Below are positions 6,447 to 54,098 of a stretch of 64,000 bases of DNA, in pieces. How positions within the stretch are numbered: the stretch's first letter is position 1; each line of letters opens with the position of its first letter. Below the pieces are notes generated by a model, which did no database searches, had not been told where the DNA came from, and saw nothing but the letters and a program-made list of their open reading frames with translations. The stretch is from Micromonospora sp. WMMD1120 (GTDB lineage: Bacteria > Actinomycetota > Actinomycetes > Mycobacteriales > Micromonosporaceae): NCBI RefSeq assembly GCF_029626235.1, contig NZ_JARUBO010000005.1, positions 124,001 through 188,000 of the forward strand, written 5' to 3'. A program made the translations under genes and the position numbers.

Positions 6447-7022
6447 TCAGTCGGCCGTCGGATCCTCGCCCCGGTCCAGCGCGTTCCACGCCTCGGTGGT
6501 GCGTCGCCCGGCGAGCGGCGTCGACGACCCCGCCGCCGTCGCGGCCTCCGGCACCCGGGCGGGACGCTCGTACCGCGCGCCCATCGCCGGCCAGTCGCCG
6601 CCCCGCAGCGCCGTCCATCCGCCCCCCACCGCCGCCGCCAGGCCACCGAGCAGGCAGAGCGCCGGCCACTGCCGACTGACCGGGCCACCCAGGTCGGCGC
6701 CGAGCGCGTACCCGCCGCCGCCGGCCACGACCAGACCCAGCGCGGCCAGCAGCACCCCGAGCACCCGCCGCACGCGGCCCCGGGTCGCCAGCACCGCGCC
6801 GGCGCCCGCCAGGGTCACCACCGCCAACGCCGGCAGCCAGGGCAGCAGGCTCGCGCCGGTACGGGTGCCCCGCACCGGCGGCAGCGGCGCCGGCCGCGCC
6901 GTCAACTCCACCGACCAGCCCCGCGTCGCGGCCCACAGCGCCAGGCCCGCGCCCGCCAGGCAGAGCAGCACGGCGTACGTCAGAGCCCGCCGACCCCCCG
7001 CGGAGCGCTCCCCGTCACTCAA
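6447..7022 (-). CDS. Trp-operon-associated membrane protein (TIGR02234-like)
   Basis: A 191-aa membrane protein with about four hydrophobic helices (for example YAVLLCLAGAGLALWAA and VLGVLLAALGLVVAGGG) and a charged C-terminal tail. Position right after trpE and the helix layout fit the family annotated as trp operon chromosome-region membrane protein; its function is unknown. The frame is open to 7127, but the codons before 7022 are the 59-bp repeat. A TTG at 7022 with AAAGG 8 nt upstream, supplied by the repeat edge, is the likeliest start. The protein is the second gene of the trpE transcript. Confidence 0.75.
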   Translation of the reverse strand: MSDGERSAGGRRALTYAVLLCLAGAGLALWAATRGWSVELTARPAPLPPVRGTRTGASLLPWLPALAVVTLAGAGAVLATRGRVRRVLGVLLAALGLVVAGGGGYALGADLGGPVSRQWPALCLLGGLAAAVGGGWTALRGGDWPAMGARYERPARVPEAATAAGSSTPLAGRRTTEAWNALDRGEDPTAD

Positions 7023-7198
7023 CGGGATGGCCTTTCGTTCGCGACTGCGGGGCTCCGCTGCGCTGCACTCCTCGCGCTCACCGGGATGGCCTTTCGTTCG
7101 CGACTGCGGGGCTCCGCTGCGCTGCACTCCTCGCGCTCACCGGGCCGGCCTTTCGTTCGCGACTGCGGGGCTCCGCTGCGCTGCACTCCTCGCGCTCA
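7022..7198 (-). repeat. Stop-to-Shine-Dalgarno repeat, three tandem copies of 59 bp
   Basis: Three near-identical 59-bp units lie head to tail (7022-7080, 7081-7139, 7140-7198). Read with the genes, the first unit starts on the trpE stop codon as TGAGCGCGAGGAGTGCAGC. Each unit contains the hairpin GCGG-AGCC-CCGC and ends with CGAAAGG, which serves as Shine-Dalgarno for the downstream gene. Other single copies are at 15.8, 29.5 and 52.7 kb. The units differ only near their ends, with AT in place of CG. Confidence 0.9.
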
Positions 7199-8749
7199 CC
7201 GGGCCGGCCTCAGTGTCTCGGCGGCGGCGATGGCCGCCAGCACGGCCCTGGCCTTGTTCCGCGTCTCCTCGTCCTCGGCCGTCGGGTCCGAGTCGGCGAC
7301 CACCCCCGCGCCGGCCTGGACGTAGGCGCGGCCGTCACGGATCAGCGCGGTACGGATGGCGATCGCCATGTCCAGGTCGCCGCCGAAACCGAAGTAACCG
7401 ACGGTGCCGCCGTAGACGCCCCGGCGTACCGGCTCCAGCTCCTCGATGATCTCCATGGCGCGCACCTTGGGCGCGCCGGAGAGGGTGCCTGCCGGGAAGG
7501 TCGCGGCGAGCGCGTCGAAGGCGGTCTGGTCGTCACGCAGGGTGCCGGTGACGGTGGAGACGATGTGCATCACGTGGCTGTACCGCTCGATGGTGGCGAA
7601 CTCCGGCACCTCCACGGTGCCCGGCCGACAGACCCGCCCGAGGTCGTTGCGGCCCAGGTCGACGAGCATCACGTGCTCGGCCCGCTCCTTCGGGTCCGCG
7701 AGCAGCTCGGCGGCGAGCGCGGCGTCGGCGGTGGGGGTGTCGCCGCGCGGCCGGGTGCCCGCGATCGGGTGCAGCAACGCCCGACGCCGCCCGTCCGGAG
7801 CGCCGGTCACCTTGAGGTGCGCCTCCGGGGACGAGCCGACGATGTCGAACCCGTCGAAGCGCAGCAGGTACATGTACGGGCTGGGATTGGTCGTGCGCAG
7901 CACCCGGTAGACGTCCAGCGGGTCGGCGTGGGTCGTGCGTTCGAAGCGCTGGGAGAGCACGATCTGGAAGCACTCGCCGGCCCGGATCGCCTCCTTCGCC
8001 GCCTCCACCGCCTTCGGGTAACCGCCCTCGGGCGTACGACAGAGGACCTCGCCGCTGGACGGACGCTCGACCGTGGAGATCATCGGTGGGATCGGCCGGG
8101 ACAGCGCCGTCGTCATCGCGTCCAGCCGGCCCACCGCGTTGTGGTACGCGGCGGCGACCTGCGGCGCGCGGTCCGGGGCGTCCAGCGGCGGCAGCACCGC
8201 GTTGGCGACCAGGATCGCCGAGCCGTCGTAGTGGTCGAGCACCACCAGATCGGTGGCGAGCATCATGCCCAGCTCCGGCACGCCCAGGTCGTCCTCGGTC
8301 AGGTCGGGCAACCGCTCGAAGCGCCGGACCAGGTCGTACCCGAGGTAGCCGACCATTCCCCCGGTCAGCGGCGGCAGGTCGCCGGACGGGTCCCCGGCCG
8401 GGCCGGCCAACGCCGTCACGGTCTCCCGCAGCATCCGCACCGGGTCACCCTCGGTGGGCAGCCCGGCCGGCGGCTGACCGAGCCAGGTCGCCACACCGTC
8501 GCGCTCGACGAGGGTCGCGCTGCTGCGGACACCGATGAACGAGTACCGCGACCACGCCATGCCGGCCGAGCCGACGCCCTGCTCGGCGGATTCCAACAGG
8601 AACGTGCCCGGTCCGCCGGCCAGCTTCCGGTAGACCCCCACCGGGGTCTCCGCGTCGGCCAGCAACCGCCTGGTGACCGGCACCACCCGCCACTCGGCGG
8701 CCAGCGCGGTGAAGCTCTCCAGGCTCGGGCTCAGGGCGCCGTCGGTCAT
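7196..8749 (-). CDS. trpE: Anthranilate synthase component I
   Basis: TrpE converts chorismate and ammonia (from the TrpG amidotransferase, which is not in this window) into anthranilate. The 517-aa protein has the feedback tryptophan site LLES in the N-terminal domain. The chorismate-binding motifs [18 protein letters not shown] and [12 protein letters not shown] are all in the C-terminal half. The start ATG overlaps the stop of the hisI-containing gene as ATGA. The stop codon at 7196 is part of the 59-bp repeat. Feedback control by Trp is expected from the LLES motif. Confidence 0.97.
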
Positions 8750-10062
8750 GGGAGTGCCTCCGGGGTCGTGACGGGCAGTTCGGTGAAGAAACAGGTGCGG
8801 TGGCCGGTGTGGCAGGCCGCGCCGACCTGGTCCACGCTGACCAGCAGCGCGTCCCCGTCACAGTCGAGGGCGACGGACCGGACGTACTGGTGGTGGCCGG
8901 AGGTGGCGCCCTTGACCCAGTATTCGCGGCGGCTGCGAGACCAGTAGGTGGCCCGGCCGGTGGTGAGGGTGCGGTGCAGCGCCTCGTCGTCCATCCAGGC
9001 GACCATCAGCACCTCGCCGGAGTCGTGCGCGCGGACCACCGCGGCGACCAGGCCGTCGGCGCTGCGCCGCAGCCGGGCCGCGATGGCCGGGTCGAGCCGG
9101 GACGGGCGAGCCGGCGGGACCGTCTCGGTCGAATCGCTGGGAACGCCGGTCACCGGCGGGTCAGGTACGGGCACAGTCGCCAATTCTCCCGCACGCGGCG
9201 CGGGCACGGGGAACCGCTCCCGCCGGGGCGCGGGCCGCGACCCGGCGGGCCGGGCCAACTGGGCGACGTAGCGACCCAGGCGACCGTCGACCAGGGCCGC
9301 CGCCAGGTCCGCGCCGGCCGCCTCGGCGATCTCCTCGGCGTACGGCCGGATCAGCGGCAACGTGCCGGCGACCAGCCGTACGGCGGCGGCCCAGAGCTGC
9401 CCGGTGGCACCCGGGCGCAGGCCGAGGCAGAGCAGCATGTCCGCCCGGTAGCCGGGCGGGGCCACCGGCAGGTCCAGGGCCGCCGCGAAGGCCGCCCGAC
9501 GGGAGTGGACCCGCACCGACGGGTTGGCCGGGCGCAGCACCGAGGGGCAGAGCCGGGCCAGGTCGGCGACCGCGAGCCGCATCCCGATACGGTCGCGCGT
9601 GGCGCGGGCGGAGGCGGCCTTACCCAGCGTGGCGATCAGCTCCTCGAGCCGGGGCGGTTCGGCGGGCTGGCAGAGCACCGGCAGGTCGATCCGGGGCCGC
9701 CAGTGCGGGTCGGCCCAGAGCAGTCGGGCGGGCGCGGTGACCGGCAGCCCGAACGCCCAGTCGGCCGGCTCGCCGAGGCGGTGCACCCAGGAGTGGACGT
9801 CGCGGGCGGCCACCGAGACGTGGGTGACCTGGCCCGCGGACTCCGCGAGGTAAGCCTGCCGCGCCGCGTACGGGGCGCCACCACCCACCAGCACGTCGAG
9901 GTCGACGTCGCTGTGTGCGGTGGCGGCGTGACGGGCGTGGCTGCCGCGTAACAGGATGCCGACGACCGGCCGCTCGGCGGCTTGCCGCAACCGCGCGGCC
10001 CAATCCTCGAGAAAACCGCTGTCCGGTAACGGAGCGTGACCCACCGCGCCATCGTGCCGCAC
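8746..10062 (-). CDS. hisI: Nucleotidyltransferase domain fused to phosphoribosyl-AMP cyclohydrolase
   Basis: One uninterrupted frame of 438 aa encodes two domains. The N-terminal part has a nucleotidyltransferase signature, G40-S41 followed by DVDLDV at 52-57, the metal site of minimal nucleotidyltransferases. The C-terminal part, from about residue 323, is HisI, which opens the ring of phosphoribosyl-AMP. It shows WMDDEAL, YWSRSR, the Mg site DCDGDALLV and the zinc site [10 protein letters not shown] Pro/Arg-rich linker of some 50 residues joins them. A separate HisI could start at a GTG at 9174 (142 aa; GGGAG 11 nt upstream), but there is no stop codon between the domains. The gene overlaps trpE by ATGA, as hisI does in many actinobacteria. 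Confidence 0.85.
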
Positions 10063-10171
10063 GTCCGATCAGCGCGCAATGCCCGTTGGCGGACTTCGTG
10101 TCCGGTCCGGAGCCTACTGCCCGTTCTCGCGCCACCTGCGACGCCCGACGGTCGGCCACCCGTCACGACCG

Positions 10172-10201
10172 TTGCGGTCCGCCGAAGATTTCATCTAGCG
10201 T
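10172..10201 (+). promoter_or_regulatory. Promoter of the ABC-2 exporter operon
   Basis: TTGCGG (10172-10177), 18-bp spacer and TAGCGT (10196-10201) form a fair sigma-70-type promoter. The predicted start at about 10208 leaves a 30-nt leader with a GGGAGG site at 10228-10232. Confidence 0.55.
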
Positions 10202-10216
10202 TGATTTCAACAGATG
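10192..10216 (+). promoter_or_regulatory. Inverted-repeat operator over the -10 of the ABC-2 operon
   Basis: Outer arms CATCT/AGATG (10192-10196, 10212-10216) enclose GTTGATTTCAAC (10200-10211), a near-complete palindrome of GTTGA and TCAAC. The site covers the -10 and transcription start and is the most AT-rich spot in the area. It would suit binding by the TetR protein encoded at 11929. Confidence 0.5.
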
Positions 10217-10238
10217 ATGAGTTCTTGGGAGGTGCGTG

Positions 10239-10997
10239 ATGGACGACGCGATAGCCGTCCAGAACCTGGTCGTGAACCGGGGTGGACGGCGGGTGCTGGA
10301 CGGGATCAGCTGCCGCGTGCCGCGCGGCGCCGTCACCGGGCTGCTCGGCCCGAGCGGCAGCGGCAAGACCACGTTCCTGCGGGCGGTGGTCGGGGTGCAG
10401 GTGGTCGCCGGTGGCACCGTCACCGTGCTCGGCCAACCTGCGGGCACCCCGGCGCTGCGGCACCGGGTGGGCTACCTGACCCAGGCGCCGAGCGTCTACG
10501 CCGACCTGACCGTCCGGGAGAACGTCCGCTACTTCGCTTCCCTCTACGGCCGTGGGCGGAGCGAGGCCGACCAGGCGGTCCAGGATGTCGGGCTGGCCGC
10601 GGCGGCCGGCCAGTTGGTCGCCACCCTCTCCGGTGGCCAACGCAGCCGGGCCTCGCTGGCCTGCGCCCTGGTCGGGGAGCCGGAACTGGTCATCCTCGAC
10701 GAGCCGACGGTCGGGCAGGACCCGGTGCTGCGCGCCGACCTGTGGGCCCGGTTCCACGCGATGGCCGCCGCCGGCACCACCCTCCTGGTGTCCAGCCACG
10801 TCATGGACGAGGCGGCCCGCTGCGACCGGCTGCTGCTGATCCGCCAGGGACGGCTGATCGCCGACGACAGCCCCGCCGCGATCCGCGCCGCCGCCGGGGT
10901 GGACGACCTCGACGAGGCGTTCCTGCGACTCATCCGCGCCGGCGAGGCCGCCGCCACCGGCACCGACACGACAGCCACCCGGGAGGCGACCGCGTGA
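10239..10997 (+). CDS. ABC transporter ATP-binding protein (ABC-2 type exporter)
   Basis: The 252-aa protein is a complete nucleotide-binding domain. Walker A GPSGSGKTT, Q-loop in YLTQAPS, signature LSGGQRSRASLA, Walker B LVILDEPTVGQDP and H-loop SSHVMDEA are all canonical. The DrrA/CcmA-like form and the permease partner that follows point to export of a drug or lipid-like substrate. ATG at 10239 follows GGGAGG by 6 nt; the GTG at 10236 is less well placed. The next gene overlaps by GTGA. Repression by the downstream TetR is likely. Confidence 0.93.
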   Translation: MDDAIAVQNLVVNRGGRRVLDGISCRVPRGAVTGLLGPSGSGKTTFLRAVVGVQVVAGGTVTVLGQPAGTPALRHRVGYLTQAPSVYADLTVRENVRYFASLYGRGRSEADQAVQDVGLAAAAGQLVATLSGGQRSRASLACALVGEPELVILDEPTVGQDPVLRADLWARFHAMAAAGTTLLVSSHVMDEAARCDRLLLIRQGRLIADDSPAAIRAAAGVDDLDEAFLRLIRAGEAAATGTDTTATREATA

Positions 10998-11749
10998 ACC
11001 CACGAATCCTGGCCGCCACCACCGGCCGCATCCTGCGTCAGCTCCGGCACGACCGGCGGACCATCGCGCTGCTCGTGGTGGTGCCGGCTGCGCTGCTCAC
11101 CCTGGTCTACTTCATGTACGCCGACCAGCCGACCCCACCGGGGCAGCCGAGCGCCTTCGACCGGATCGCGCTGGTGCTGCTGGGCATCTTCCCCTTCGTG
11201 ATCATGTTCCTGGTGACCAGCATCGCCATGCTGCGGGAACGCACCTCCGGCACCCTGGAACGGCTGCTCACCACGCCGCTGGGCAAGCTCGACCTGCTCT
11301 TCGGCTACGGCATCGCGTTCGGGCTGGCCGCCGCCGCGCAGGCCGCCGTCGCCGCCGCCGTGGCGTACTGGATCTTCGACCTGGACACCGCCGGCAGCAT
11401 CGGGCTGGTGCTCGGGATCGCCGTGCTCGACGCGGTGCTCGGCGTCGCGCTCGGGCTGCTGTGCAGTGCCTTCGCGCGCACCGAGTTCCAGGCAGTACAG
11501 TTCCTGCCAGTCGTGGTGGTCCCGCAACTGCTGCTCTGCGGGCTGTTCGTGGCCCGGGACCAGATGGCGGGCTGGCTCCAGGCGCTCAGTGACGCCCTTC
11601 CCCTGTCGTACGCCATCGAGGCGTTGCAGGAGGTCGGCGCGCACGCCGAGCCGACCGGCCGGACCTGGGCGGACGTGGCGGTGGTGTTCGGCGCGGTGGT
11701 GCTGGCGCTGGTGCTCGCGGCGGCCACCCTGCGCCGACGCACCGGCTGA
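10994..11749 (+). CDS. ABC-2 type transporter permease
   Basis: The 251-aa membrane protein has six predicted helices, beginning with IALLVVVPAALLTLVYF, and the ABC-2 permease motif RERTSGTLERLLTTPLG between helices 2 and 3. GTG at 10994 overlaps the stop of the ATPase gene, so the two are coupled. Together they should form an exporter with two ATPase and two permease subunits. The substrate is unknown; the family includes daunorubicin-type drug exporters and is often controlled by a local TetR. Confidence 0.92.
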   Translation: MNPRILAATTGRILRQLRHDRRTIALLVVVPAALLTLVYFMYADQPTPPGQPSAFDRIALVLLGIFPFVIMFLVTSIAMLRERTSGTLERLLTTPLGKLDLLFGYGIAFGLAAAAQAAVAAAVAYWIFDLDTAGSIGLVLGIAVLDAVLGVALGLLCSAFARTEFQAVQFLPVVVVPQLLLCGLFVARDQMAGWLQALSDALPLSYAIEALQEVGAHAEPTGRTWADVAVVFGAVVLALVLAAATLRRRTG

Positions 11750-11790
11750 CCGCCGGGGCCGGGCCAGTCGCCGGCGCGGGCCGGGCTGAC

Positions 11791-11888
11791 GACCTGGCGC
11801 GGGCCGGACGACCTGGCGCGGGCCGGACGACCTGGCGCGGGCCGGGCGACCTGGCGCGGGCCGGGCTGACGACCTGGCGCGGGTCCGG
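11791..11888. repeat. 19-bp direct tandem repeat, five copies
   Basis: Five copies of a unit beginning GACCTGGCGCGGGCCGG start at 11791, 11810, 11829, 11848 and 11871. Spacing is 19 bp except for the last (23 bp, with CTGAC inserted). The array fills the gap between the permease stop and the tetR ribosome site. It has no start codon or hairpin of note and may vary in copy number between strains. Confidence 0.85.
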
Positions 11889-12796: not shown

Positions 12797-12803
12797 GGCG
12801 GGC

Positions 12804-13131
12804 GCGGGAGCGCGGGAGCGCGGGAGCGCGGGAGCGCGGGAGCGCGGGAGCGCGGGAGCGCGGGAGCGCGGGAGCGCGGGAGCGCGGGAGCGCGGGAGCG
12901 CGGGAGCGCGGGAGCGCGGGAGCGCGGGAGCGCGGGAGCGCGGGAGCGCGGGAGCGCGGGAGCGCGGGAGCGCGGGAGCGCGGGAGCGCGGGAGCGCGGG
13001 AGCGCGGGAGCGCGGGAGCGCGGGAGCGCGGGAGCGCGGGAGCGCGGGAGCGCGGGAGCGCGGGAGCGCGGGAGCGCGGGAGCGCGGGAGCGCGGGAGCG
13101 CGGGAGCGCGGGAGCGCGGGAGCGCGGGAGC
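12804..13131. repeat. 8-bp tandem repeat GCGGGAGC, 41 exact copies
   Basis: 328 bp made of 41 uninterrupted, identical 8-bp units. It ends in GCGGCC just before the 3' end of the DUF2470 gene. The perfect identity implies recent expansion or active slippage. Confidence 0.95.
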
Positions 13132-13149
13132 GCGGCCTCGTTGATGAGG

Positions 13150-13985: not shown

Positions 13986-15773
13986 TCACCGGGTCTGCTC
14001 CAGCCAGGAGGCGTAGAGCAGCGCGTAGACCGAGCCGGCCTCGCGGACCAGCTCGTCGTGCGGGCCACGCTGCACCACCCGACCCCGGTCCACGACGATG
14101 ACCTCGTCGGCGGCCTGCGCCGTGGAGAGCCGGTGCGCGATCGCGAGGGTTGTCCGACCCCGGGTGACCGCGTCCAGGGTGCGCTGCAACCGCACCTCCG
14201 TCGCCGGGTCGACAGCGCTCGTCGCCTCGTCGAGCACCAGCAGGTCCGGGTCGGCCACGTACGCCCGGGCCAACGCGACCAACTGCCGCTCGCCCACGCT
14301 CAGCGCCTCACCGCGCTCCCCGACCGGCGTGTCCAGGCCCGCCGGCAGACCCTCCAGCCAGTCCGACAGCCCCAGCTCGGTGAAGGCCGCGGTGAGCTGC
14401 TCGTCGGTCAGCTCCGGCCGGGCGAACCGGACATTTTCCCCCACCGTCGCGTCGAACAGGAAACCGTCCTGCGGCACCATCACGACCCGCGAACGCAGCG
14501 AGTCGAACCGGACGTCCGCCAGCGGCACCCCGGACAGCAGCACCGCCCCGGCCGACGGGTCCATCAGCCGGGTCAGCAACTTGGCGAACGTCGTCTTGCC
14601 GCTGCCGGTCTCGCCGACCACCGCCACCCGGCTCTTCGCCGCGATCTCCAGGTCGATGTCGTGCAGCACCGGCGGGCCACCCGGATAGGCGAACCGCACC
14701 CCGGAGAACCGGACGTCCAGCGGCCCACCCGGCAGCTCCCGCCCCTGCTCCCCCGGGTCGGCGACGTCCGGGGCGACGTCCAGCACGTCCAGCACGCGAC
14801 GCCAACCGGCGATCGCGTTCTGCGCCTCGTTGAGCACCTCCGTGGCGATCTGCACCGGCTGGATGAAGAGCGTGACCAGGAAGAGGAACGCGGTGAGCTG
14901 GCCGATCGACAGCGTGCCGTCCACCCCCAGCAACACGCCGAGCACCACCACGCCCGCCAGCGCCAACCCGGCCGCCAGCTCCCCCACCGAACTGCCCACG
15001 ATGCTGATCCGGATCGCCCGCTGCTGGGCCAGGCGCTGCGCGTCGATCGCCTCGTCCAGCCGACGCTCGGTGCGCCCAGCGATCCCGTACGCCCGGATCA
15101 CCGGCGCGCCCACCACACTCTCGCCGATCGCGCCGAGCAAGGTGCCGGTCCGCTGCCGTACCGTCGCGTACGCCGCGCCGAGGCGCCGTTGCAACTGCCT
15201 GATGATGAACACCGCCGGCAGGAACGCGGCCAACACCACGAGCGTCAACTGCCAGGAGTACGCCAGCATGACCGCCGTGGTGACCACCAGCTGACCCAGG
15301 TTGACCAGCAGGATCACGCCGCCCCACTGGAGGAACTGGGTGATCTGGTCGACGTCGCTGGTCACCCGCGACACCAGCGAGCCACGCCGCTCCGACTGCT
15401 GGTGCAACATCGACAGGTCGTGCACGTGCCGGAACGCCCTCGTCCGCACATTGGCCAGCGCCGTCTCGCTGACCGTGAACAGTCGACGCATCATCAGGTA
15501 ACCGCAGAGGGTCGTGACCGCCAGGATCGCCGCGGTGGCGGCGACCACCGTCCAGACCACCTCCAGGTCCAGGCCACCGACGATGCCCCGGTCGATGCCC
15601 TGCTGCACGGCCACCGGTACGGCCACCCGACCGACCATGTACACGAGCGCCAACGCCAACGTGCCGGCCAGTCCCGTCCGCAACTCCGGCGAGAGCGCCA
15701 GCCCTCGGCGCAGGGTCTGCCAGGTCGTCTCCTCCCGCTTGTCACTCGTTTCCGTGGCTGCGCTCGCGCTCAC
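13986..15773 (-). CDS. ABC exporter half-transporter, consensus-site Walker B subunit
   Basis: The 595-aa protein has an N-terminal six-helix exporter domain (from about residue 35) and a C-terminal ATPase domain. Walker A is GETGSGKTT and Walker B LLVLDEATSAVD, with the catalytic Glu. The signature is LSVGE instead of LSGGQ. In a heterodimer with the upstream gene product, this signature would face the partner's weak Walker B and form the degenerate ATP site. GTG at 15773 follows GGAAGG, the end of a dispersed repeat; its first codons (GTGAGCGCGAGCGCAGCC) are themselves a piece of that repeat. The substrate is unknown. Confidence 0.93.
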   Translation of the reverse strand: MSASAATETSDKREETTWQTLRRGLALSPELRTGLAGTLALALVYMVGRVAVPVAVQQGIDRGIVGGLDLEVVWTVVAATAAILAVTTLCGYLMMRRLFTVSETALANVRTRAFRHVHDLSMLHQQSERRGSLVSRVTSDVDQITQFLQWGGVILLVNLGQLVVTTAVMLAYSWQLTLVVLAAFLPAVFIIRQLQRRLGAAYATVRQRTGTLLGAIGESVVGAPVIRAYGIAGRTERRLDEAIDAQRLAQQRAIRISIVGSSVGELAAGLALAGVVVLGVLLGVDGTLSIGQLTAFLFLVTLFIQPVQIATEVLNEAQNAIAGWRRVLDVLDVAPDVADPGEQGRELPGGPLDVRFSGVRFAYPGGPPVLHDIDLEIAAKSRVAVVGETGSGKTTFAKLLTRLMDPSAGAVLLSGVPLADVRFDSLRSRVVMVPQDGFLFDATVGENVRFARPELTDEQLTAAFTELGLSDWLEGLPAGLDTPVGERGEALSVGERQLVALARAYVADPDLLVLDEATSAVDPATEVRLQRTLDAVTRGRTTLAIAHRLSTAQAADEVIVVDRGRVVQRGPHDELVREAGSVYALLYASWLEQTR

Positions 15774-15831
15774 CGGGCCCGCCTTCCGTTCACGACTGCG
15801 GGGCTCCGCTCCGCTGCACTCCTCGCGCTCA
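15774..15831 (-). repeat. Stop-to-Shine-Dalgarno repeat, single copy between two ABC genes
   Basis: One unit starts on the stop codon of the upstream ABC gene as TGAGCGCGAGGAGTGCAGC and ends in GGAAGG before the GTG of the next gene. A second partial copy (GTGAGCGCGAGC) forms the first codons of that gene. Same family as 7022-7198. Confidence 0.9.
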
Positions 15832-17736
15832 CCGGTCCACCTCGATTTCTAGGCCCGACGGCAACGGCGCGACCTCGTCGTCGTACGGGGTGTCCTGTGC
15901 GCGGTCGACCTCGGCCTGCTCGTAGGCGGTGACCAGGTCCACGTAACCGGGCACGGTGGCCAGCAGCTCGCTGTGGGTGCCCCGGGCGACCACCCGTCCC
16001 TGCTCCACGTAGATGACCTCGTCGGCGAGCGCGATGGTGGCCCGGCGGTACGCCACCACCAGGATCGACGCGACCGGCACCCCCGCCTCGGCGGTCGAGG
16101 AGCGCAGCCCCGCCAGGATGGCCGCCTCGACCCGCGGGTCCACGGCGCTCGTCGCGTCGTCGAGCACCAGCAGGCGGGGCCGGCCGGCCAACGCGCGGGC
16201 CAGGGTGAGCCGCTGCCGCTGGCCGCCGGAGAGCGAGGTGCCCCGCTCACCGACCATGGTGTCCAGCCCGTCGGGCAGCGCGGCGACGAACCCGTCCGCC
16301 TCGGCGAGCCGCAGCGCCGCCCAGACCACCTCGTCGTCGACGCCCGGCCGGTCCAGGGCGATGTTGGCGCGGACGGTGTCGTCGAAGATGAAGGGCACCT
16401 GCGCGACCAGGGCCACGGTGCCGGCCAGCGAGGCGGCGGTCAGCTCGCGCACGTCCACCCCGTCCACCGTCACCGAGCCGGCGTCCGGGTCGACCAGGCG
16501 CACCGCCAGCGAGGCGATCGTGGACTTTCCCGACCCGGTGGGCCCGACCAGGGCCACCGTCCGACCGGCCGGCACCGTGAAGCTGACCTCGCCGAGGACC
16601 CGCGCGCCGGGCTGGTGGGCCTCGGCCGGCGGATAGGAGTAGTGCACGTCGTCGAAGGCGAGAGTGGCCGGGCCGGCGTCCGTCGGGTCGAGCGCGCGCC
16701 GCCCGTACGGCATCTCGCCGGTGGCGTCGAGCACCCGGCGGACCCGGTCCCAGCCGGCGACGCTGCGCGGCAGCTCGGCCAGGACCCACCCGATGGCCCG
16801 CACGGGGAAGGCCAGCACGGTGAAGAGGAAGGCCACGCTGACCAGCTCGGCCACGCTGATCGCGCCCTGCCGCAGCCGGAACGCCCCGACCACGAGCACG
16901 GCGAGCGTGCCGAGGCTGGGCAGCGTCTCCAACAGCGGGTCGAAGACGCCGCGCAACCGACCGACGGCGATCAGCGAGTCGCGCAGCTCGCCGGCGCGGC
17001 CCGCGAACCGGGCGGTCTCCTGCGCCTCGCGGCCCATCGTCTTGACCACCAGCGCGCCGTCGAAACTCTCGTGGGCGATGCCGCTGACCTCGGCGCGCAG
17101 CCGCTGCGCCCGAGCCTGTCGAGGAGCCATCCGGCGGGAGTAGACGACGTTGAGCGCGAACAGCGCGGGAAAGACCGCGAGACCGACCAGGGCGAGCGCC
17201 CAGTCGGTGGCGAACAGCGACACCATCGCCCCGACCAGCATCACCAGCGTGCCGACGGCGAAGGGCAGCGGGGCGATCGGATACCACGCCGCCTCCACGT
17301 CCGAGTTGGCGTTGGACAGCAGGGTGCCGGTGGAGTTGCGGTGGTGCCAGGACAGCGGCAGTTCCAGGTAGCGACGGGTGACCCGGCGGCGGTAGGCCGC
17401 CTGGAGGCGGTACTGCATGTAGCCGGCGCCGAGCCGGCGGCCGAAGATGCCCGCCACCCGCAGCACGCTGATCCCGAACAACGCGGTCGCGGCCAGCGCC
17501 AGGGCGCCGGCGCCCACCTCGCCGCGCTCGATGGCGGGCAGCGCCACCCCGCCGACGACCGACCCGACGACCCGGGCGCTGACGATGATCATCCCGCCGA
17601 AGAGCACGCTGCCGACGACCGCCACCGTGAAGATCCGCGGCTGCTCCCGGATCGCCTGCCGCAGGACGCCCAGCCCTCGACTGAGAACGTCCCGACTTGT
17701 CCTGCTCGCCACGCTCTCCCCCGCCGTAAGCCGCAA
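15829..17736 (-). CDS. ABC exporter half-transporter, degenerate-site Walker B subunit
   Basis: The 635-aa half-transporter has six membrane helices (first IFTVAVVGSVLFGGMIIV) and an ATPase domain with Walker A GPTGSGKST and full signature LSGGQRQRLTLARA. Walker B reads LLVLDDATSAVD, so the catalytic Glu is Asp. The Asp and the partner's LSVGE signature fall in the same composite site, the usual layout of asymmetric heterodimeric exporters such as TM287/288 or BmrCD. TTG at 17736 follows GAGGGAG; a GTG eight codons later is the alternative. The two ABC genes are separated only by a dispersed repeat and are surely cotranscribed. Confidence 0.93.
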   Translation of the reverse strand: MRLTAGESVASRTSRDVLSRGLGVLRQAIREQPRIFTVAVVGSVLFGGMIIVSARVVGSVVGGVALPAIERGEVGAGALALAATALFGISVLRVAGIFGRRLGAGYMQYRLQAAYRRRVTRRYLELPLSWHHRNSTGTLLSNANSDVEAAWYPIAPLPFAVGTLVMLVGAMVSLFATDWALALVGLAVFPALFALNVVYSRRMAPRQARAQRLRAEVSGIAHESFDGALVVKTMGREAQETARFAGRAGELRDSLIAVGRLRGVFDPLLETLPSLGTLAVLVVGAFRLRQGAISVAELVSVAFLFTVLAFPVRAIGWVLAELPRSVAGWDRVRRVLDATGEMPYGRRALDPTDAGPATLAFDDVHYSYPPAEAHQPGARVLGEVSFTVPAGRTVALVGPTGSGKSTIASLAVRLVDPDAGSVTVDGVDVRELTAASLAGTVALVAQVPFIFDDTVRANIALDRPGVDDEVVWAALRLAEADGFVAALPDGLDTMVGERGTSLSGGQRQRLTLARALAGRPRLLVLDDATSAVDPRVEAAILAGLRSSTAEAGVPVASILVVAYRRATIALADEVIYVEQGRVVARGTHSELLATVPGYVDLVTAYEQAEVDRAQDTPYDDEVAPLPSGLEIEVDR

Positions 17737-29510: not shown

Positions 29511-29516
29511 CAGCGA

Positions 29517-29568
29517 CACCTTCCATTCGCGACTGCGGGGCTCCGCTTCGCTGCACTCCTCGCGCTCA

Positions 29569-29571
<3 letters not shown>
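29517..29571 (-). repeat. Stop-to-Shine-Dalgarno repeat, single copy after hisB
   Basis: The unit begins right at the hisB stop (TGATGAGCGCGAGGAGTGC) and ends in GGAAGG, the ribosome site of the small membrane gene. It contains the GCGG-AGCC-CCGC hairpin. Same direction as transcription, as in the other copies. Confidence 0.9.
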
Positions 29572-34244: not shown

Positions 34245-35993
34245 TCACCGGGCGAACGGCTCCACCATCATGGCCGCCGCCCGCAGCCACGCCTGTCGGG
34301 TCTCCGGTTGGAGTTGGTGGTACTCGATCGACGAGCCGGTCTCCAGCGCCGGGTCGTACGGCACCACCGCCACACCCCGGGTGCGGGTCGCGAAGTGCCG
34401 CTCCAGGTCGTCCTGGAGGGGCGAGCGGCCCGGGGTCGGGCAGGAGATCAGGGTGATGGCGTTGTCCGCCAGCTCGCTCATGCCCTCCTCGTGCAGCAGG
34501 TCGAGCATCCAGTCCGCGCTGAACGCCGCGTCCTCGCGGGGAACCGTCGTCACCACCAGTTGGTCGGCGGCCTGCATCACGGTGCGCCAGTTGGGGCTCT
34601 CCACGTTGTTGCCGGTGTCCACGCAGACCACCTCGTGGGTGCGCCGCAGCAGCTCCAGCACCCGCCGGACGGTGAACTGGTCCAGTCGCTGCGCGAAGCG
34701 CGGGCTCTCCTCGCCGGCCAGCACGTCGTACGAGCCGTCGGAGGCGTGCCGGAGGTAGTCGTCGAGCCGGTCCAGAAGGGTCGCGCCCTCCAGGATCTCG
34801 ATCTGGGCCAGCTCGCTGACCAGGTGCCGGATCGTCCGGGCGTGCCGGGCGCTGCCGGCGCGCAGGCCGAGGGTGCCCCGTAGCTCGTTGTCGTCCCAGG
34901 CCAGTACGCCCTTGCCGCGCACGCTGCCGACGGTGGCGGCGGCGAGCACCGTGGCGGTCGTCTTGTGCACCCCACCCTTCGGGTTGGCGAAGGCGAACAC
35001 CCGGGGCGTGCCCAGGTCCCGGCGGAGCACCCCGTTGGCGCGCTCCTGCTCCTGGTCGACGCCCTGCGGGCGCCACTCGATCCGGGCCGGGTAGGAGCGC
35101 TCGGCGACCGCCGAGCCGACCGCCGGGGCGGGTGGCGTCGGCGGGACGGACGGCCGGGTGACCGGCGGCGCGGGAGGCGGGGCCACCGGCGGGGGTGGCG
35201 CGGCCACCGGATAGCCGGTCTCCGGCTGGTAGCCGGTCTCCAGCAGGGCGTAGCGCGACTCGACCGGCTGGTCGCCCGGCCGGTAGCCGTTGTCCAGCAG
35301 GGCGTAGCGCGACGGGACAGGTTCGGAGCCGCGCGGCGGCTCGGGCGCGGCCCGATAGTCCGGCTCGGGCGCGGCCCGATAGTCCGGCTCGGGCGCGGCC
35401 CGATAGTCCGGCTCGGGCGCGGCCCGGTAGTCCGGCGCGGCGCGGTAGCCCGGCTGCTCGGTGCGGTAACCCGGCTCGCTCCGGTAACCCGACTCGGCGC
35501 GGTAGTCCGGCCCGGCGCGGTAGTCCGGCTCGGACCGGTACGCCGGCTCCGCCTGGTACGCCGACTCGGACCGGTACGCCGGCTCACTCCGGTAGGCCGG
35601 CTCCGCCCGATAGGCCGGCTCGGACCGGTACGCCGGCTCGCCCCGGTAGTCCGGCTCGGACCGGTACGCCGGTTCGGCCCGGTAGTCCGGCTCGGCCCGG
35701 TAGGCGCTGTCGACGCGGTAGGTCCCCTCGGCCCGGTAACCGGGCTCCGCGCCGTACGACAGCTCGGAGGGGTGCCCGATGGCGGGGGCCCGGCCGGCGT
35801 AACCGTTGCCTGCCGCGCGCCGGGGCAGCGGGTCCGGCGGGGCCTCCTCGGCATGCCGGTCCGGTTCGGTCTGCTCGGCGCCGCGACCGCCCAACCGGGC
35901 ACGGTCCAACAGCGCGCGCCACCGCGGTGCTGGTTCGGCCGGCCGGCCCCAGCCGGTCTCACTGCCCTCCACGGCCCGCCCTCCCAGCGCCAT
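34245..35993 (-). CDS. MinD/ParA-like ATPase with a Tyr-Arg-Glu-Pro repeat domain
   Basis: The 582-aa protein has two parts. Residues 75-225 are tandem pentads such as YRAEP, YRSEP and DYRGE (about 20), followed by four DYRAAPEP octads. A Pro-rich linker follows. The C-terminal 270 residues form a SIMIBI ATPase with the deviant Walker A NPKGGVHKTT, a switch-like DDNELRGTLGL and VCVDTGNNVES. The nearest relatives by pattern are the MinD/ParA proteins linked to type VII secretion (EspI-like) and cell-pole functions. The Tyr/Arg-rich repeats look disordered and could bind partners or phase-separate. ATG at 35993 is preferred over the TTG just before it. The true role is unknown. Confidence 0.8.
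   Translation of the reverse strand: MALGGRAVEGSETGWGRPAEPAPRWRALLDRARLGGRGAEQTEPDRHAEEAPPDPLPRRAAGNGYAGRAPAIGHPSELSYGAEPGYRAEGTYRVDSAYRAEPDYRAEPAYRSEPDYRGEPAYRSEPAYRAEPAYRSEPAYRSESAYQAEPAYRSEPDYRAGPDYRAESGYRSEPGYRTEQPGYRAAPDYRAAPEPDYRAAPEPDYRAAPEPDYRAAPEPPRGSEPVPSRYALLDNGYRPGDQPVESRYALLETGYQPETGYPVAAPPPPVAPPPAPPVTRPSVPPTPPAPAVGSAVAERSYPARIEWRPQGVDQEQERANGVLRRDLGTPRVFAFANPKGGVHKTTATVLAAATVGSVRGKGVLAWDDNELRGTLGLRAGSARHARTIRHLVSELAQIEILEGATLLDRLDDYLRHASDGSYDVLAGEESPRFAQRLDQFTVRRVLELLRRTHEVVCVDTGNNVESPNWRTVMQAADQLVVTTVPREDAAFSADWMLDLLHEEGMSELADNAITLISCPTPGRSPLQDDLERHFATRTRGVAVVPYDPALETGSSIEYHQLQPETRQAWLRAAAMMVEPFAR
35337..35790 (-). repeat. In-frame repeats in the MinD-like gene
   Basis: Four 24-bp units (around 35337-35432) encode DYRAAPEP and are almost identical in DNA. 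About 20 degenerate 15-bp units up to 35790 encode YR-x-EP pentads. Units are multiples of 3, so copy changes would keep the frame. Confidence 0.85.
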
Positions 35994-44872: not shown

Positions 44873-44881
44873 CGGCGGTGC

Positions 44882-48612: not shown

Positions 48613-49715
48613 CGGGCCACCGCCGCCATCACGAAGGAGCGCAGCGCCTCGTCACCGTCGCGCCGGCCGTACGCCGCGGCGGCGGCGCCCATCGCGTACA
48701 GCCGCTGGGGGTCGCGGATGAGCGGGATGACGGTGCGCTCCAGCCAGTCCGGGGTCAGCTCCGCGTCGTCGACCAGCAGACCGCCGCCGGCCTCCACCAC
48801 CGGCAACGCGTTGCGCCGCTGCTCCTGGTTGCTGTGCGGGTACGGCACGAAGATCGTCGGCTGCCCGATCGCGGCCACCTCGGCGACGGTCATCGCCCCG
48901 CCCCGGGCGAGCATCAGGTCGGCGGCCGCGTAGCCCAGCTCCATCTCCGACAGGTACGGCAGCGTCACGTACGGCACCGGCAGGTCGGAGGGGATCGGCA
49001 CCGGCTCGTTGCGGGCGCCCATCACGTGCAGCACCTGCACGCCGTTGCGGGCCAGCTCCTTGGCCGCCCCGGAGACCGCCAGGTTGATCGTCCGGGCGCC
49101 GGAGGAGCCGCCGGAGACGAAGAGCACCGGCAGGTCCGGGCGGAGCCCGAAGTGGGCGCGGGCGGCGTTGCGCAGCGCGTACCGGTCCAGGCTGGTGATG
49201 CTGCGCCGCAGCGGCACCCCGACCACCGTGGCGTCGCGCAGCGACTCGGCCTGGCTCGGCTGGTGCGGGAAGCCCACCGCGACGTTCTTGGTGAACTTCA
49301 TGCCCAACCGGTTGGCCACCCCCGGCGGCACGTTCACCTCGTGGATCACCATCGGCAGCTCCCGGCGCCACGCGGCCAGGTAGGCCGGCACCGAGACGTA
49401 CCCGCCGAAGCCGACCACCGCGTCGGCCCGCACCTCGTCGATCACCTTGCCCGCGGCGCGCGCCGCGGTCCACATCCGGCCCGGGGTACGGACCAGGTTC
49501 ATGTTCACCGAGCGGGGGAGCTGGTACGCCGGGATCTGTCGCAGGTCGTAGCCGTGCGGCGGGATCAGGTCGTTCTCCATGCCCCGGGGTGTGCCGAGGC
49601 AGGTGATCCGGACGCCCGGGTCGTGTCGGCGCAGGCAGTCGGCGAAGGCGAGCAGCGGGTAGACGTGCCCCCCGGTGCCCCCTCCCGCGAGCACCACCGA
49701 ACGCAGCGGACCCAT
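48609..49715 (-). CDS. murG: UDP-GlcNAc transferase of lipid II synthesis
   Basis: MurG adds GlcNAc to lipid I on the inner face of the membrane, giving lipid II. The 368-aa GT-B enzyme has GGGTGGHVYPLLAFAD, a typical FGGYVSVPAY loop, SGGSSGARTIN and RGGAMTVAEV. ATG at 49715 shares its A with the ftsW stop (TGATG), so both genes are coupled. Confidence 0.97.
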   Translation of the reverse strand: MGPLRSVVLAGGGTGGHVYPLLAFADCLRRHDPGVRITCLGTPRGMENDLIPPHGYDLRQIPAYQLPRSVNMNLVRTPGRMWTAARAAGKVIDEVRADAVVGFGGYVSVPAYLAAWRRELPMVIHEVNVPPGVANRLGMKFTKNVAVGFPHQPSQAESLRDATVVGVPLRRSITSLDRYALRNAARAHFGLRPDLPVLFVSGGSSGARTINLAVSGAAKELARNGVQVLHVMGARNEPVPIPSDLPVPYVTLPYLSEMELGYAAADLMLARGGAMTVAEVAAIGQPTIFVPYPHSNQEQRRNALPVVEAGGGLLVDDAELTPDWLERTVIPLIRDPQRLYAMGAAAAAYGRRDGDEALRSFVMAAVAR

Positions 49716-51325
49716 CAGCGTCTCCTCTCGCTCGCCGTACCCCTGCGGTCGCGGTCCTGTCGGACCCCGCGCGGCGCGGCCTGGTCGTCGTGGCGCCGCT
49801 CGCGGGACCGGGGCACTGACCCTCGGTCACCCGGCGGAGTCGCCGGGCGGCGACGCCGGCCGGGAAGCGGCGGCAACGGGGCCCAGAGTAGTCGGACCCA
49901 CCGGGCCGGCGGACGGGCATGCAGCGCTCTGGCCGCATCGGGTTCGGCGCGGGCGAAGGAGGCCAGCATGCCGATGCCGGCCAACGTCACCACCAGGGCG
50001 CTTCCGCCGTCGGAGATGAACGGCAGCGGCAGACCGGTGATCGGCAGCAGGCCGACCACCCCACCGATGTTGATCACGGCCTGGCTGACCAGCCAGGTGG
50101 TCACCGCGGCGGCGGCGAGCCGCCGGAACGGGTCGTCGACCCGCCGGGCGATCCGCAGACCGGTGTACGCGAGCACGGCGAACAGGCTGAGCACCACCGC
50201 GCAGCCGATCACGCCCAACTCCTCGGCGATGACGGCGAAGATGAAGTCGTTGTGCGCCTCGGGCAGCCAGTCCCACTTCAGGCTGCCCTTGCCCAGCCCG
50301 ACACCGAACCAGCCGCCGTGCTCGATGGCCAGTCGGCCCTGGTGGAACTGGTAGCAGGGGTCGCCGCACTCCTCCGGTGGCGGCGGATTGAGGAACAGGG
50401 TCAGCCGGGCCAGCCGGTAGTTGTCCGCGCCGCGCTCGCCGGAGCCGGCGCCGAGCGAGGCCACCGCGACGAGCAGACCGACGCCGAGCAGCCCGAGCAC
50501 CGTCAGCGCGCCGAACACCCGCATCCGCACGCCGGCCGCCCAGAGCAGACCGACCACGAGCGCCAGCAGGCAGAGCATGGTGCCCACGTCGTTGTAGCCG
50601 ACCAGGACGAACAGCAGACCCATCACCGGGAAGAGCGGGGTGGCCAGCTCCCGCCACCAGCCCAGCATGGCGCCCTTGCGGGCGATCAGGTGCGCGCCCC
50701 AGAGCACCAGCGCGAACTTGGCCAGCTCGGACGGCTGCACCTGGATCCCGCCGATGAACAGCCAGAGCAGCCGCGCCTCGACCGGGCCGACCCGGGCGGA
50801 CTCCTGGTCGGTGAGCCGGGCGTACGCCAGCAGCAGGTTGAGCACCAACAGCAGGGCGATCGCGGTGAACAGCAGCGGCCGGCCCAGCGAGCGGTAGGTG
50901 CTGGCGGGCAGGCGCTGGCAGACCCAGAACGCCCCGATGCCGATCACCGCGAAGATCGCCTGCTTGGTCACCGACGCGGAGGCGTTGCCGTCCTCGGCGT
51001 AGTCCTTCACGCTGGTCGCGGAGAAGACCATCGTCAGCCCGATCAGCAGCAGCAGGCCGGCGCTGGACAACAGCAGGTAGTAGCTGGCCAGCGGTCGGTC
51101 CAGCAGGCCCCGCAGCGCGGTGAGCCCGCTGGCCGCGTCGAACCCGCGCAGCGGCGCCGGCGCGCTCTCCCGGGCCGCCCCGCCGGGCTCCGGCCCGCGT
51201 ACGCCGTCCGGTGGCGCGGTCGCCTCGACGGTGCGCGCCGCGCCCGGTGACCGTCGCTGTCGACCGGCTGCCCTGTCGTCGGTGCCGAGTTCCTCCCCCA
51301 CACCCACATCATCACCGTTGAACAC
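49715..51325 (-). CDS. ftsW: Septal peptidoglycan polymerase FtsW
   Basis: FtsW is the SEDS glycosyltransferase that works with the class B PBP at the septum. The 536-aa protein has ten helices from about residue 78, the SEDS motifs VQPSELAKFALVLW and GWFGVGLGKGSLKW, the catalytic Asp region EAHNDFIFAV, and LPFISDGGSALV. The N-terminal 75 residues and C-terminal 60 residues are charged and disordered. GTG at 51325 has GGGGTG upstream. Upstream of it, where murD is usual, are only 200 bp with an inverted repeat. Confidence 0.95.
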   Translation of the reverse strand: MFNGDDVGVGEELGTDDRAAGRQRRSPGAARTVEATAPPDGVRGPEPGGAARESAPAPLRGFDAASGLTALRGLLDRPLASYYLLLSSAGLLLLIGLTMVFSATSVKDYAEDGNASASVTKQAIFAVIGIGAFWVCQRLPASTYRSLGRPLLFTAIALLLVLNLLLAYARLTDQESARVGPVEARLLWLFIGGIQVQPSELAKFALVLWGAHLIARKGAMLGWWRELATPLFPVMGLLFVLVGYNDVGTMLCLLALVVGLLWAAGVRMRVFGALTVLGLLGVGLLVAVASLGAGSGERGADNYRLARLTLFLNPPPPEECGDPCYQFHQGRLAIEHGGWFGVGLGKGSLKWDWLPEAHNDFIFAVIAEELGVIGCAVVLSLFAVLAYTGLRIARRVDDPFRRLAAAAVTTWLVSQAVINIGGVVGLLPITGLPLPFISDGGSALVVTLAGIGMLASFARAEPDAARALHARPPARWVRLLWAPLPPLPGRRRRPATPPGDRGSVPRSRERRHDDQAAPRGVRQDRDRRGTASERRR

Positions 51326-51403
51326 GCGCGAGCACCCCAGAACACCACCCCCGGCGTGTCGCCGCCCCCGCCCCCCGCGCGCCCCCGGCCCCCGGCCCCC
51401 GCT

Positions 51404-51471
51404 GATCTTGCACTTTCTGTCCCGGCGAAAACCCCGAAGCGGGACATTCCGGCGTACGAAAGTGCAAGATC
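51404..51471. repeat. GATCTTGC inverted repeat, copy C (in the murD slot)
   Basis: Perfect 14-bp arms GATCTTGCACTTTC (51404-51417) and GAAAGTGCAAGATC (51458-51471). An inner pair TGTCCCG/CGGGACA gives a long two-step stem. Flanks are C-rich on the left and G-rich on the right. It lies between mraY and ftsW and could end or weaken transcription there. Confidence 0.9.
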
Positions 51472-51525
51472 GACGGAGATCGGGGCGGGGCGCGCGGCGG
51501 GTGGGCTAGCGGGGGCGGGGGCGGG

Positions 51526-52650
51526 TCAGACCATGTTGGCGAGGAACTCGCTGTAGAACAGGCCCAGGGCGATGGCCACGCCGATGCCGGCGATGATCCA
51601 GAAGCGGACCACGATGTTGACCTCGCTCCAGCCGGCCAACTCGAAGTGGTGCTGGAGCGGGGACATCCGGAACACCCGTTTACCGGTGGTCTTGAAGGAG
51701 ATGATCTGGATCACCACGGACATCGTGATGATCACGAACAGCCCGCCGATGATGGGCAGCAGCAGGATCGTCCGGGTGGACATCGCCATGCCGGCGATCA
51801 GTCCGCCCAGACCCAGCGCACCGGTGTCACCCATGAAGATCCGCGCCGGTGACGTGTTCCACCACAGGAAGCCCACACAGGCCCCGGCCGCCGCCCCGGC
51901 GATCAGCGCGATCTCCAGCGGATCGCGCACCTCGTAGCAGTACGGCTGGGTGTAGCTCGGGTCGGCGCACCAGTGCCGGTACTGCCAGAAGGCGATGAGC
52001 GCGTACGCGCTCAGCACCATCACCGACGCGCCGGTGGCGAGACCGTCCAGGCCGTCGGTGAGGTTGACGCCGTTCGTCGCGGCCATCACCACGAAGATGA
52101 AGATGATCACCGCGCCGACCTTGCTGACCTCCAGGGCGTCGATGTCCCGGATGAAGCTCAGCGTCGTGCTGCCCACTGTCTGCGTGTTCGTCGCGTTGCC
52201 CGTGGCGTCGGTCATCGTGCTGGGGAACCACAGCGCGATGACCCCGAAGACCGCGCCGACCAGGATCTGGCCGAGCAGCTTGCCGCGCTTGTTCAGCCCG
52301 GCGCTGTTGCGCTTGCGCACCTTGAGGAAGTCGTCGAGGAAGCCCACCGCGCCGGAGAACACCATCAGCCCCAGCAGCACCAGCGCGGTGATCGTCGGCT
52401 CGACCTGCGCGATCTGCTGGTCCGGCAGGGTGGTCAGGGCCAGGTGCCCGGCCACGTACGCGATCACCGTGGCCAGGATGAAGACCACGCCACCCATGGT
52501 GGGGGTGCCCTTCTTGCCCTGGTGCATGGCCGGGCCGTCGGTACGGATCGGCTGACCGGCCTTGAGCCGGGTGAACACCTTGATCGCGATGGGGGTGCAG
52601 AACAGCGAGACGAGGAAGGCCACCCCCATGGCGACGATGACCGCCCTCAT
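51526..52650 (-). CDS. mraY: Phospho-MurNAc-pentapeptide translocase
   Basis: MraY joins phospho-MurNAc-pentapeptide to undecaprenyl phosphate, giving lipid I. The 374-aa protein has ten helices. Catalytic motifs are [34 protein letters not shown] and the histidine-rich HHFELAGW near the end. The extracytoplasmic loop with [10 protein letters not shown] is long, as in other actinobacteria. ATG at 52650 overlaps the murF stop as ATGA and uses a GAAGG Shine-Dalgarno at the edge of a dispersed repeat. Confidence 0.97.
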
Positions 52651-54098
52651 TCGGTGCCACCTTCAGTCGCGACTGCGGGGCTCGCAAGCTCGCTCCTCGC
52701 GCTCCGGACCGACTCCGCACCGGCGTCGGCGCGCAGGGCGTCGGCCACCTCCCAGGTCCGGTACCGGGAACCCTTGACCAGTACGACGTCACCCGGTCGT
52801 AGCTCGTCCCGCAGCACCTCGACGGCCGCCGCCTGATCGGTGAGCAGCACCGACTCTCCTCCCCAGTTCGCTACCGCTGTCGCGCCTTCGTGGATCGGCG
52901 CGGCCGGCTCGCCCACCACGAGCAGCCGGTCGACGCCCAACTCGGCCACGAGTCGGCCGATCTCGGCATGGCCGTCGTGCTCGAACGGGCCCAGCTCGGC
53001 CATGTAACCGAGCACCGCGACGGTACGCCGTCCCTGACCGATGCTCGCCAACGCCCGCACCGCCACCGCCATCGAGGCCGGGTTGGCGTTGTACGAGTCG
53101 TCGATGACGGTGACCCCGTCGGCGCGGTCGAAGACGTCCATCCGCCGGGTCGAGACCAACCCCAGCTCGCCGAGGGCCACGGCCAGCTCGGCCAGCGGCA
53201 TGCCCAGCTCCCGGGCGACCGCCGCCGCGGCGAGCGTGTTGCCGACCTGGTGCCGGCCGGTCACCGCGAGCCGCACCGGCGCGCGTCCCTCCGGCGTGAC
53301 AAGGGTGTACGACGCGCGCCCCCGCTCGTCGAGCGTGACGTCCTCGGCGCGCACGTCGGTAGACGGCGCCTCGCCGTACCGGACCACCCGGGCCCGGGTA
53401 CGGCTCGCCATCGCGTCCACCCGGGGGTCGTCGGCGTTCAGCACGGCGAGCCCGTCCGGCGGCAGCGCCTCGACCAGCTCGCCCTTGGCCTGGGCGATCG
53501 CGTCCTGCGAACCGAACTCGCCGATGTGCGACGTGCCGACGTTGAGCACCACGGAGATCCGGGGCGGCACCACCTCGCACAGGTACCGTACGTGCCCGAT
53601 CCCCCGCGCGCCCTTCTCCAGCACCAGGTAGCGGGTGTCCGGTCCGGCCTGCAACGCGGTGTACGGGTGTCCCAGCTCGTTGTTGAACGACCCGGGCGGC
53701 GCCACGGTGTCCCCGAGGCGGGCGGTGAGCTGACCGATCAGGTCCTTGGTGGTGGTCTTGCCGGAGGAGCCGGTGATGCCGACCACGGTCAGACCGGGCA
53801 GCCGGTCCACCGCGGCGCGGGCCAGCCGGCCCATCGCGGTCAGGGCGTCGTCGACCAGCACCATCGGCACCCCGGGCACCTCGCGGCTGCCGAGCACCGC
53901 CACCGCGCCGGCCTCGATCGCCGTCGCCGCGTAGTCGTGCCCGTCGACCTTCTCCCCGGGGAAGGCCACGAAGAGCGAACCGGGACCCACCTTGCGCGAG
54001 TCGAACTCCACAGTGCCGGTGACGGCGCTGGCCGGGTCGGCGGCCACCAGCCGCCCGTCGACCGCTTCGGCCACCTCGGCCAGGCTCAGCGCGATCAC
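52647..54098 (-). CDS. murF: UDP-MurNAc-tripeptide-D-Ala-D-Ala ligase
   Basis: MurF adds the D-Ala-D-Ala dipeptide. The 483-aa protein has the ATP loop [14 protein letters not shown], the NELG(H)P region of MurF and [10 protein letters not shown]. The last 22 residues come from a dispersed repeat that reads in frame here ([14 protein letters not shown]), so the tail is not conserved. ATG at 54098 overlaps the murE stop as ATGA. Confidence 0.97.
52661..52704 (-). repeat. Stop-to-Shine-Dalgarno repeat inside the murF 3' end
   Basis: A variant copy with GAGCGCGAGGAGCGAGC at one end and GAGCCCCGCAGTCGCGA at the other. The TGA that begins the other copies reads GGA here, so murF runs through the element and stops after the GAAGG ribosome site, in an ATGA overlap with mraY. 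Confidence 0.8.

Follow-up and report, generated by a model that had tools for sequence, protein, structure and literature searches.

A short, apparently mobile repeat with relay-like reading frames at gene junctions of Micromonospora

Could a short repeat insert between two coupled genes of an operon and leave their coupling in place? The closest described case is that of the mycobacterial interspersed repetitive units (MIRUs), short repeats of 40-100 bp that occur both dispersed and in tandem. As described in PMC12548453, which credits Supply et al. (1997), MIRUs are apparently mobile, are inserted at start codons, and carry an internal open reading frame (ORF) coupled to the next gene at -4 nt. 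Here, we describe a repeat of comparable anatomy in a 64,000-nt stretch of Micromonospora sp. WMMD1120 (contig NZ_JARUBO010000005.1, positions 124,001 to 188,000; hereafter the window), typically 59 bp long and placed between the stop codon of one gene and the start codon of the next. Judged from the sequence, we put the probability that it is a mobile repeat that preserves translational coupling at about 0.8; that ribosomes actively relay through it in vivo seems fairly probable.

Two other groups of short bacterial repeats should be mentioned. The repetitive extragenic palindromic (REP) sequences, given as 20-40 bp in PMC3733652, are likewise short, dispersed and multicopy. However, they are palindromic, whereas the Micromonospora units do not fold and occupy stop-start junctions. 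The enterobacterial RU elements, given as 103-168 bp in PMC2759123, are small mobile intergenic repeats that have also been searched for reading frames, but by description, on which this comparison rests, they are longer and resemble miniature inverted-repeat transposable elements. A literature search limited to open-licence papers, and hence weak evidence of absence, gave no listed title describing the present repeat, and no paper containing both Micromonospora and MIRU.

Units at gene junctions

The typical unit is 59 bp long, with the consensus GTGAGCGCGAGGAGTGAGCCGGnnTTGCGAGCCCCGCAGTCGCGAACGAAnGnnGnnCCn, and is followed by a DTG start codon (D in IUPAC code). Among 105 junctions, 75 units belong to subtype A, 18 to subtype B and 12 to other types. 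The window contains six units, distributed over four loci; all lie on the minus strand, as do the genes on both flanks:

7141..7199, minus strand: site 1, first of three tandem units at the junction between trpE and the gene for a Trp-associated membrane protein; subtype B, 59 bp; the upstream ORF, 7196-8749, is trpE
7082..7140, minus strand: site 1, second of the three tandem units at the trpE junction
7023..7081, minus strand: site 1, third unit at the trpE junction; the next gene starts with TTG at 7022 (TTGA) and its product matches PF09534 (Trp_oprn_chp, 9.5e-30)
15774..15832, minus strand: site 2, lone unit between two ABC exporter genes; subtype B, 59 bp; upstream stop in GTGA 15832-15829, downstream GTGA from 15773
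29511..29569, minus strand: site 3, lone unit between hisB and a 56-codon ORF; subtype B, begins with ATGA; hisB stop TGA 29571-29569, ORF start ATG 29510
52651..52704, minus strand: site 4, lone unit between murF and mraY; 54-bp short subtype, in which only the G of the first GTGA is left; mraY ATG at 52650

The first-pass annotation of the window had reported four copies, all in the direction of transcription, each with the upstream stop in its first bases and with an end serving as ribosome site for the downstream start. The four loci and their direction stand, and the matches exceed those of window shuffles: at three mismatches or fewer, 5 matches were obtained with an 18-letter pattern where shuffles predict 0.35, and 6 with a 19-letter pattern where they predict 0.20. 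The number of copies has to be raised to six, as the one placed at 7022-7198 is three tandem 59-bp units. The sequence proposed as common to all, TGAGCGCGAGGAGTGCAGC, is found in five of the six; the unit of the fourth locus is of a shorter subtype, GAGCGCGAGGAGCGAGCTTGCGAGCC, which lacks the TG of the first GTGA. The upstream stop is present at three loci and missing at the fourth, where murF has no stop at the unit, while a start after an SD-like (Shine-Dalgarno-like) end is found at all four. At site 2, the ABC gene following the unit opens with GTGAGCGCGAGCGCAGCC (15752-15773), which is similar to the 5' end of the repeat and may represent part of a second unit joined to this gene. Note that the window is rich in units (6 of 56 in 0.9 percent of the genome), and that the stretch was selected by a reader who had noticed the repeats.

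With a profile built from 33 units of the window genome (7.15 Mb) and a cut-off of E <= 0.01, 56 units were identified at 38 loci, 50 of them below 1e-8. A core search of the same genome with two mismatches gave 51 matches against 4 for the reversed pattern, and in another core search the reversed control gave 3 against 15 real matches; one chance match with two mismatches (L060) was kept out of the 38 loci. A same-strand ORF starts no more than 70 nt after the unit at 33 loci by script, at 31 of these within 10 nt, and two further loci have short downstream genes (171 and 300 bp), giving 35 of 38 with a sense start. The three others are a degenerate pair at 1613239 and weak matches at 2365284 (E 8.7e-4) and 3142507 (E 9.3e-5). 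On the upstream side, a coding frame enters the unit at 28 loci and ends exactly at the first GTGA in 23 of them; of the other five, one (his) stops at TG/A and one at the second GTGA, two continue through the unit as far as the stop in the downstream DTGA, and one fuses with the downstream frame. The remaining ten loci include 3560265, where the first GTGA closes a frame but coding upstream is not demonstrated, and 2365284, where the weak match holds the stop of the upstream frame and no gene comes after it; the rest end earlier, or are uncertain or degenerate. At L069, a partial unit, GTGAGCGCGAGGAAGGG, stands after the full one and ahead of the downstream ATGA (beside G000:C5:5280641-5280692), and at L048 (G000:C5:813966-814009) the unit is read in frame throughout, apparently merging two genes into one ORF.

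Copies lying mostly away from junctions or in random direction, which would have spoken against the first-pass proposal, are thus not what the genome holds, since a same-strand start follows 35 of the 38 loci. The further statement that the element lands only where it keeps translation working goes too far, with 3 of 38 loci lacking a downstream start and 10 of 38 a demonstrable upstream frame entering the unit. The preference for such junctions is not mere background, because in sampled DNA of the window genome, with the element junctions excluded, 4-nt overlaps make up only 53 of 196 same-strand gene pairs (1-nt overlaps a further 7), and 55 more pairs lie in opposite directions.

Units were also examined in other genomes. 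Among named records with the core there are at least 80 loci, those listed being 76 from Micromonospora, 3 from Plantactinospora and 1 from an unclassified member of Micromonosporaceae; 54 of the 74 usable arrays (arrays near a locus end were skipped) passed under both strict criteria. A second set comprised 60 loci from four genomes (20 from G004, 20 from G034, 18 from G021 and 2 from G020), for which the tests had been fixed beforehand: the upstream stop lies at the first GTGA in 49 of 60, and a sense start follows within 45 nt in 59 of 60. Among the arrays of the named records that did not pass, those of L164, L168, L212 and L213 have an upstream frame ending at the unit that the gene caller overlooked and that was read by eye, and the array of L215 is antisense to both called neighbours. 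Arrays reach up to five units.

Reading frames through the unit

In the typical unit, which begins with GTGA, the TGA ends the upstream gene and the GTG opens a frame of about 19 codons, which stays open up to a TGA overlapping the start of the downstream gene. Following the frames from the unit GTG via stop-start overlaps at 106 independent junctions (repeated loci were removed by downstream protein, as also in the target-duplication test of the second set), 77 reach the downstream start at -4/-1, 57 by one frame and 20 by a chain of two to five frames. Of the others, 19 share the frame of the downstream gene, 2 overrun it in a different frame, 4 terminate 11-13 nt within it and 4 lack a start at the edge. 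Relay and fusion span two of the three length classes; therefore, the 77 relays should be compared with one third, and the 96 cases of relay or fusion with two thirds. Read-through is a third way to keep a junction working, beside relay and N-terminal fusion, and is found at site 4 of the window. There the murF frame runs through the unit, which looks like a form that has lost two GTGA bases, and stops at the ATGA of mraY, with a C-terminal tail of MurF gained relative to the relatives.

The lengths show the same bias. The last unit of an array falls into the classes 2, 0 and 1 modulo 3 in 45, 9 and 6 of 60 cases, and in 45, 9 and 2 of 56 in the second set; the corresponding counts for array periods are 20, 17 and 1, and 19, 11 and 3 in the second set, where all three come from one 61-bp array. 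This array (L415, G021:C1:5099006-5099205) has four units of period 61 (3n+1) and is the sole one of its class in that set.

Does the frame matter, or does the unit merely supply a ribosome site? It could be that the unit is a strong SD and a spacer only, that the downstream start works independently, and that the relay frame is a by-product of insertion at DTGA together with an inherited 59 bp. The SD duplex energies, calculated against a generic anti-SD sequence, agree with this: the value is -8.31 kcal/mol before the downstream start and -7.10 before the 5' GTG, compared with -8.04 at native -4 overlaps and -3.78 at random positions in genes, so that the SD-like stretch at the unit end equals native coupled starts in strength. 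The commonness of the 59-bp length is also as expected. However, lengths other than 59 still favour 3n-1 or 3n, and just 1 of 38 array periods is 3n+1, or 3 of 33 in the second set, where all belong to one array. Moreover, only 7 of the 35 loci with a downstream start are without a demonstrated upstream frame entering the unit, though starts free of an overlapping stop are common (44 of 97 DTGA starts). A bare SD and spacer is therefore in our opinion an unlikely account, albeit one to be taken seriously.

A conserved relay peptide was also considered and is unlikely. The conserved 3' half of the unit reads LRAPQSRT in subtype A, and SPAVANE in the short subtype and subtype B; since it is read in two frames among the subtypes, the peptide is probably functionless, and it seems to be the DNA that is conserved.

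Filled and empty junctions

Four junctions of the window genome, including hisB, were compared by eye in the 30 best-matching of 61 genomes, the window genome included. For hisB, the element is present in 14 genomes and a diverged element in 2, while 7 are exactly empty and 7 have another spacer. For the first junction of L051, whose genes we take by eye to be putative nuo genes, the element is present in 14, 15 are exactly empty and 1 has three extra nucleotides; for the second, 9 have the element or a diverged form, 11 are exactly empty and 10 have other spacers. For L071, the counts are 7 with the element, 15 exactly empty, 7 with other short differences and 1 not alignable. The sites of the window were compared in six relatives. 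Site 1 is without the element in 2, with it in 3 and was not found in 1; site 2 is empty in 1 and holds one unit in 2, two units in 1 and three units in 2; site 3 is empty in 2; and all six relatives are empty at site 4. At the seven junctions compared, the break between filled and empty forms lies exactly before the DTG start codon. For example, GGGGCGGATC is directly followed by ATGACC in the empty junction L309, whereas in the filled junction L302 it is followed by 59 nt and then by ATGACT. The first-pass annotation had offered mobility and mRNA coupling as two possibilities; the filled and empty junctions support the former, the relay geometry fits the latter, and both may hold for one element.

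The unit ends give some indication of the target. The 5' end is GTGA at 55 of 60 and 53 of 56 junctions, and the downstream start is ATGA at 13 of 60 and 14 of 56; because the two differ in this way, the element probably brings its own GTGA. The nucleotides before the 5' GTGA resemble those before the downstream start of the same site, with 2.70 of 6 matching against 2.06 (sd 0.13) at 60 junctions, and 2.09 of 4 against 1.38 (sd 0.15) at 32 new junctions. This similarity is strongest at -1 and -2 and fits a target duplication of 2-4 nt. A long duplication including the SD, hinted at by single examples, was rejected; only 2-4 nt were upheld across junctions.

The findings could be combined as follows. 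A short, apparently non-autonomous mobile repeat would insert directly before a DTG start codon and in gene orientation, mostly where this start overlaps the stop of the preceding gene. Ribosomes ending at the first TGA would re-initiate at the GTG that overlaps it, make the relay peptide, and then re-initiate once more at the downstream gene, and the translation of the operon would be little disturbed given such a relay. Tandem units would form a relay chain (period 3n-1) or a single longer frame (period 3n), and copies elsewhere or of the wrong length would get lost. It has also been considered that the element itself selects stop-start overlaps with an SD, perhaps via mRNA or the ribosome, i.e., that it is a translation-guided mobile element, with MIRUs as a second case that evolved independently or has diverged very far; this is a speculative extension that we consider improbable.

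Could the repeat be immobile instead, an ancient feature of coupled junctions that disappears through deletions between short direct repeats and is multiplied in tandem by slippage? At hisB, where 14 of 30 genomes have the element, the filled state could be the ancestral one, followed by clean losses, and tandem copy number does vary. However, murF/mraY is filled in the window genome and empty in all six relatives, near-identical cores stand at dozens of unrelated junctions, and there are 5 to 65 exact copies per genome, which makes an immobile origin very improbable. Least credible is a role as an RNA element, with a hairpin at which the mRNA of the operon would be processed, as the first-pass annotation had offered, or stabilised: units are almost always sense and within operons, but the seven that were folded do so no more stably than shuffled sequences (z -0.29 to +1.20) and into varied shapes, the supposed stem differs among subtypes and is absent from the commonest, and Rfam at gathering score gave no match in the window.

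Several points weigh against a mobile, coupling-preserving repeat. The target duplication is short and imperfect, inverted ends are not visible by eye in the unit alignment, and no transposase was identified, although no search aimed at transposases was made. His-type sites begin with ATGA, which is no simple fit with an element-borne GTGA. The raw counts overstate the frame rule, since relay and fusion span two of the three length classes and most units have their 59 bp by common descent; in a control, trimming two letters from the tail turned 79 junctions into fusions, and trimming one still left 12 relays. Site 4 of the window and locus 813966 are cases of extension or fusion, with no relay. 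In addition, the 106 junctions had been selected in advance for an upstream stop that lies at the unit or close to it, gene starts and stops were called by a simple codon-usage caller written for this analysis, and the second set is not wholly independent, some of its loci being identical to loci of the named set.

Some other repeats were noted. In the window, the 8-mer GCGCGGGA forms a perfect tandem array of 41.8 copies (12802-13135), and imperfect tandem repeats of 24 and 18 bp span about 400 bp (35337-35738). A candidate second repeat, a longer and different repeat-like spacer near 3477-3495 of L291 (the second L051 junction in another species), was dropped: its exact pattern occurs in 1 of 360 loci and not in the window, and a similar pattern has 3 matches in the window genome against 2 for the control.

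Distribution and relation to MIRUs

The exact 17-letter core was present in 61 of 61 sampled genomes of the genus, the window genome included, with 5 to 65 copies each and none of the reversed pattern. Among 298 genomes of the order, 44 of 44 from the genus have it, as do 2 of the 10 others from the family; outside the family it was found in 1 of 244, by a single match. A profile search of 15 genomes outside the genus gave 11 matches in G121, 2 in G280, one weak match in each of four, and none in nine.

How close, then, is the unit to a MIRU? In anatomy, the two are alike with respect to MIRUs as described in the source cited above: the Micromonospora unit, typically 59 bp, dispersed and tandem, lies within their size range; it stands at start codons (35 of 38 loci, 59 of 60 in the second set, and the empty sites); and its predicted ORF lies at -4/-1 to the next gene at 77 of 106 junctions.

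For a comparison of sequences, a MIRU-like core of 22 letters was searched for and found in 7 of 10 genomes of the Mycobacterium family, the reversed pattern in none. Thirty loci were taken, of which 15 have a whole unit bounded by DTG codons on both sides; 11 of these 15 units are of length 3n-1, most often 53 bp, compared with mostly 59 bp for the Micromonospora unit. By our own caller, L331 and L341 are antisense and L336 lies inside an ORF. One of the loci sits between the genes for a histidine kinase and an OmpR-type regulator, the setting expected of the senX3-regX3 MIRU. Frame use provides no clean difference from the Micromonospora subtypes, as 13 of the 15 MIRU-like copies use one peptide frame and 2 another. 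Against 1000 shuffles, the similarity between the Micromonospora unit and the MIRU-like unit has a local p of 0.38 (subtype A) and 0.056 (subtype B), and a global p of 0.18 (A) and 0.011 (B), and the Micromonospora profile (R1) has no match in G163 and G177, both of which have the MIRU-like core. The unit may thus be called MIRU-like by anatomy; without convincing kinship at the level of sequence, it is not assigned to the MIRU sequence family.

For annotation, the unit changes predicted protein ends, such as the C-terminus of MurF in the window, and 19 of the 106 junctions permit an N-terminal extension of the downstream gene. More generally, the present results suggest that translational-relay repeats are not peculiar to mycobacteria. 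Micromonospora, of which many species have been sequenced, has clean empty sites and carries 5 to 65 exact copies in each genome sampled; it would be well suited to testing whether -4 re-initiation passes through the relay and what moves MIRU-type elements.

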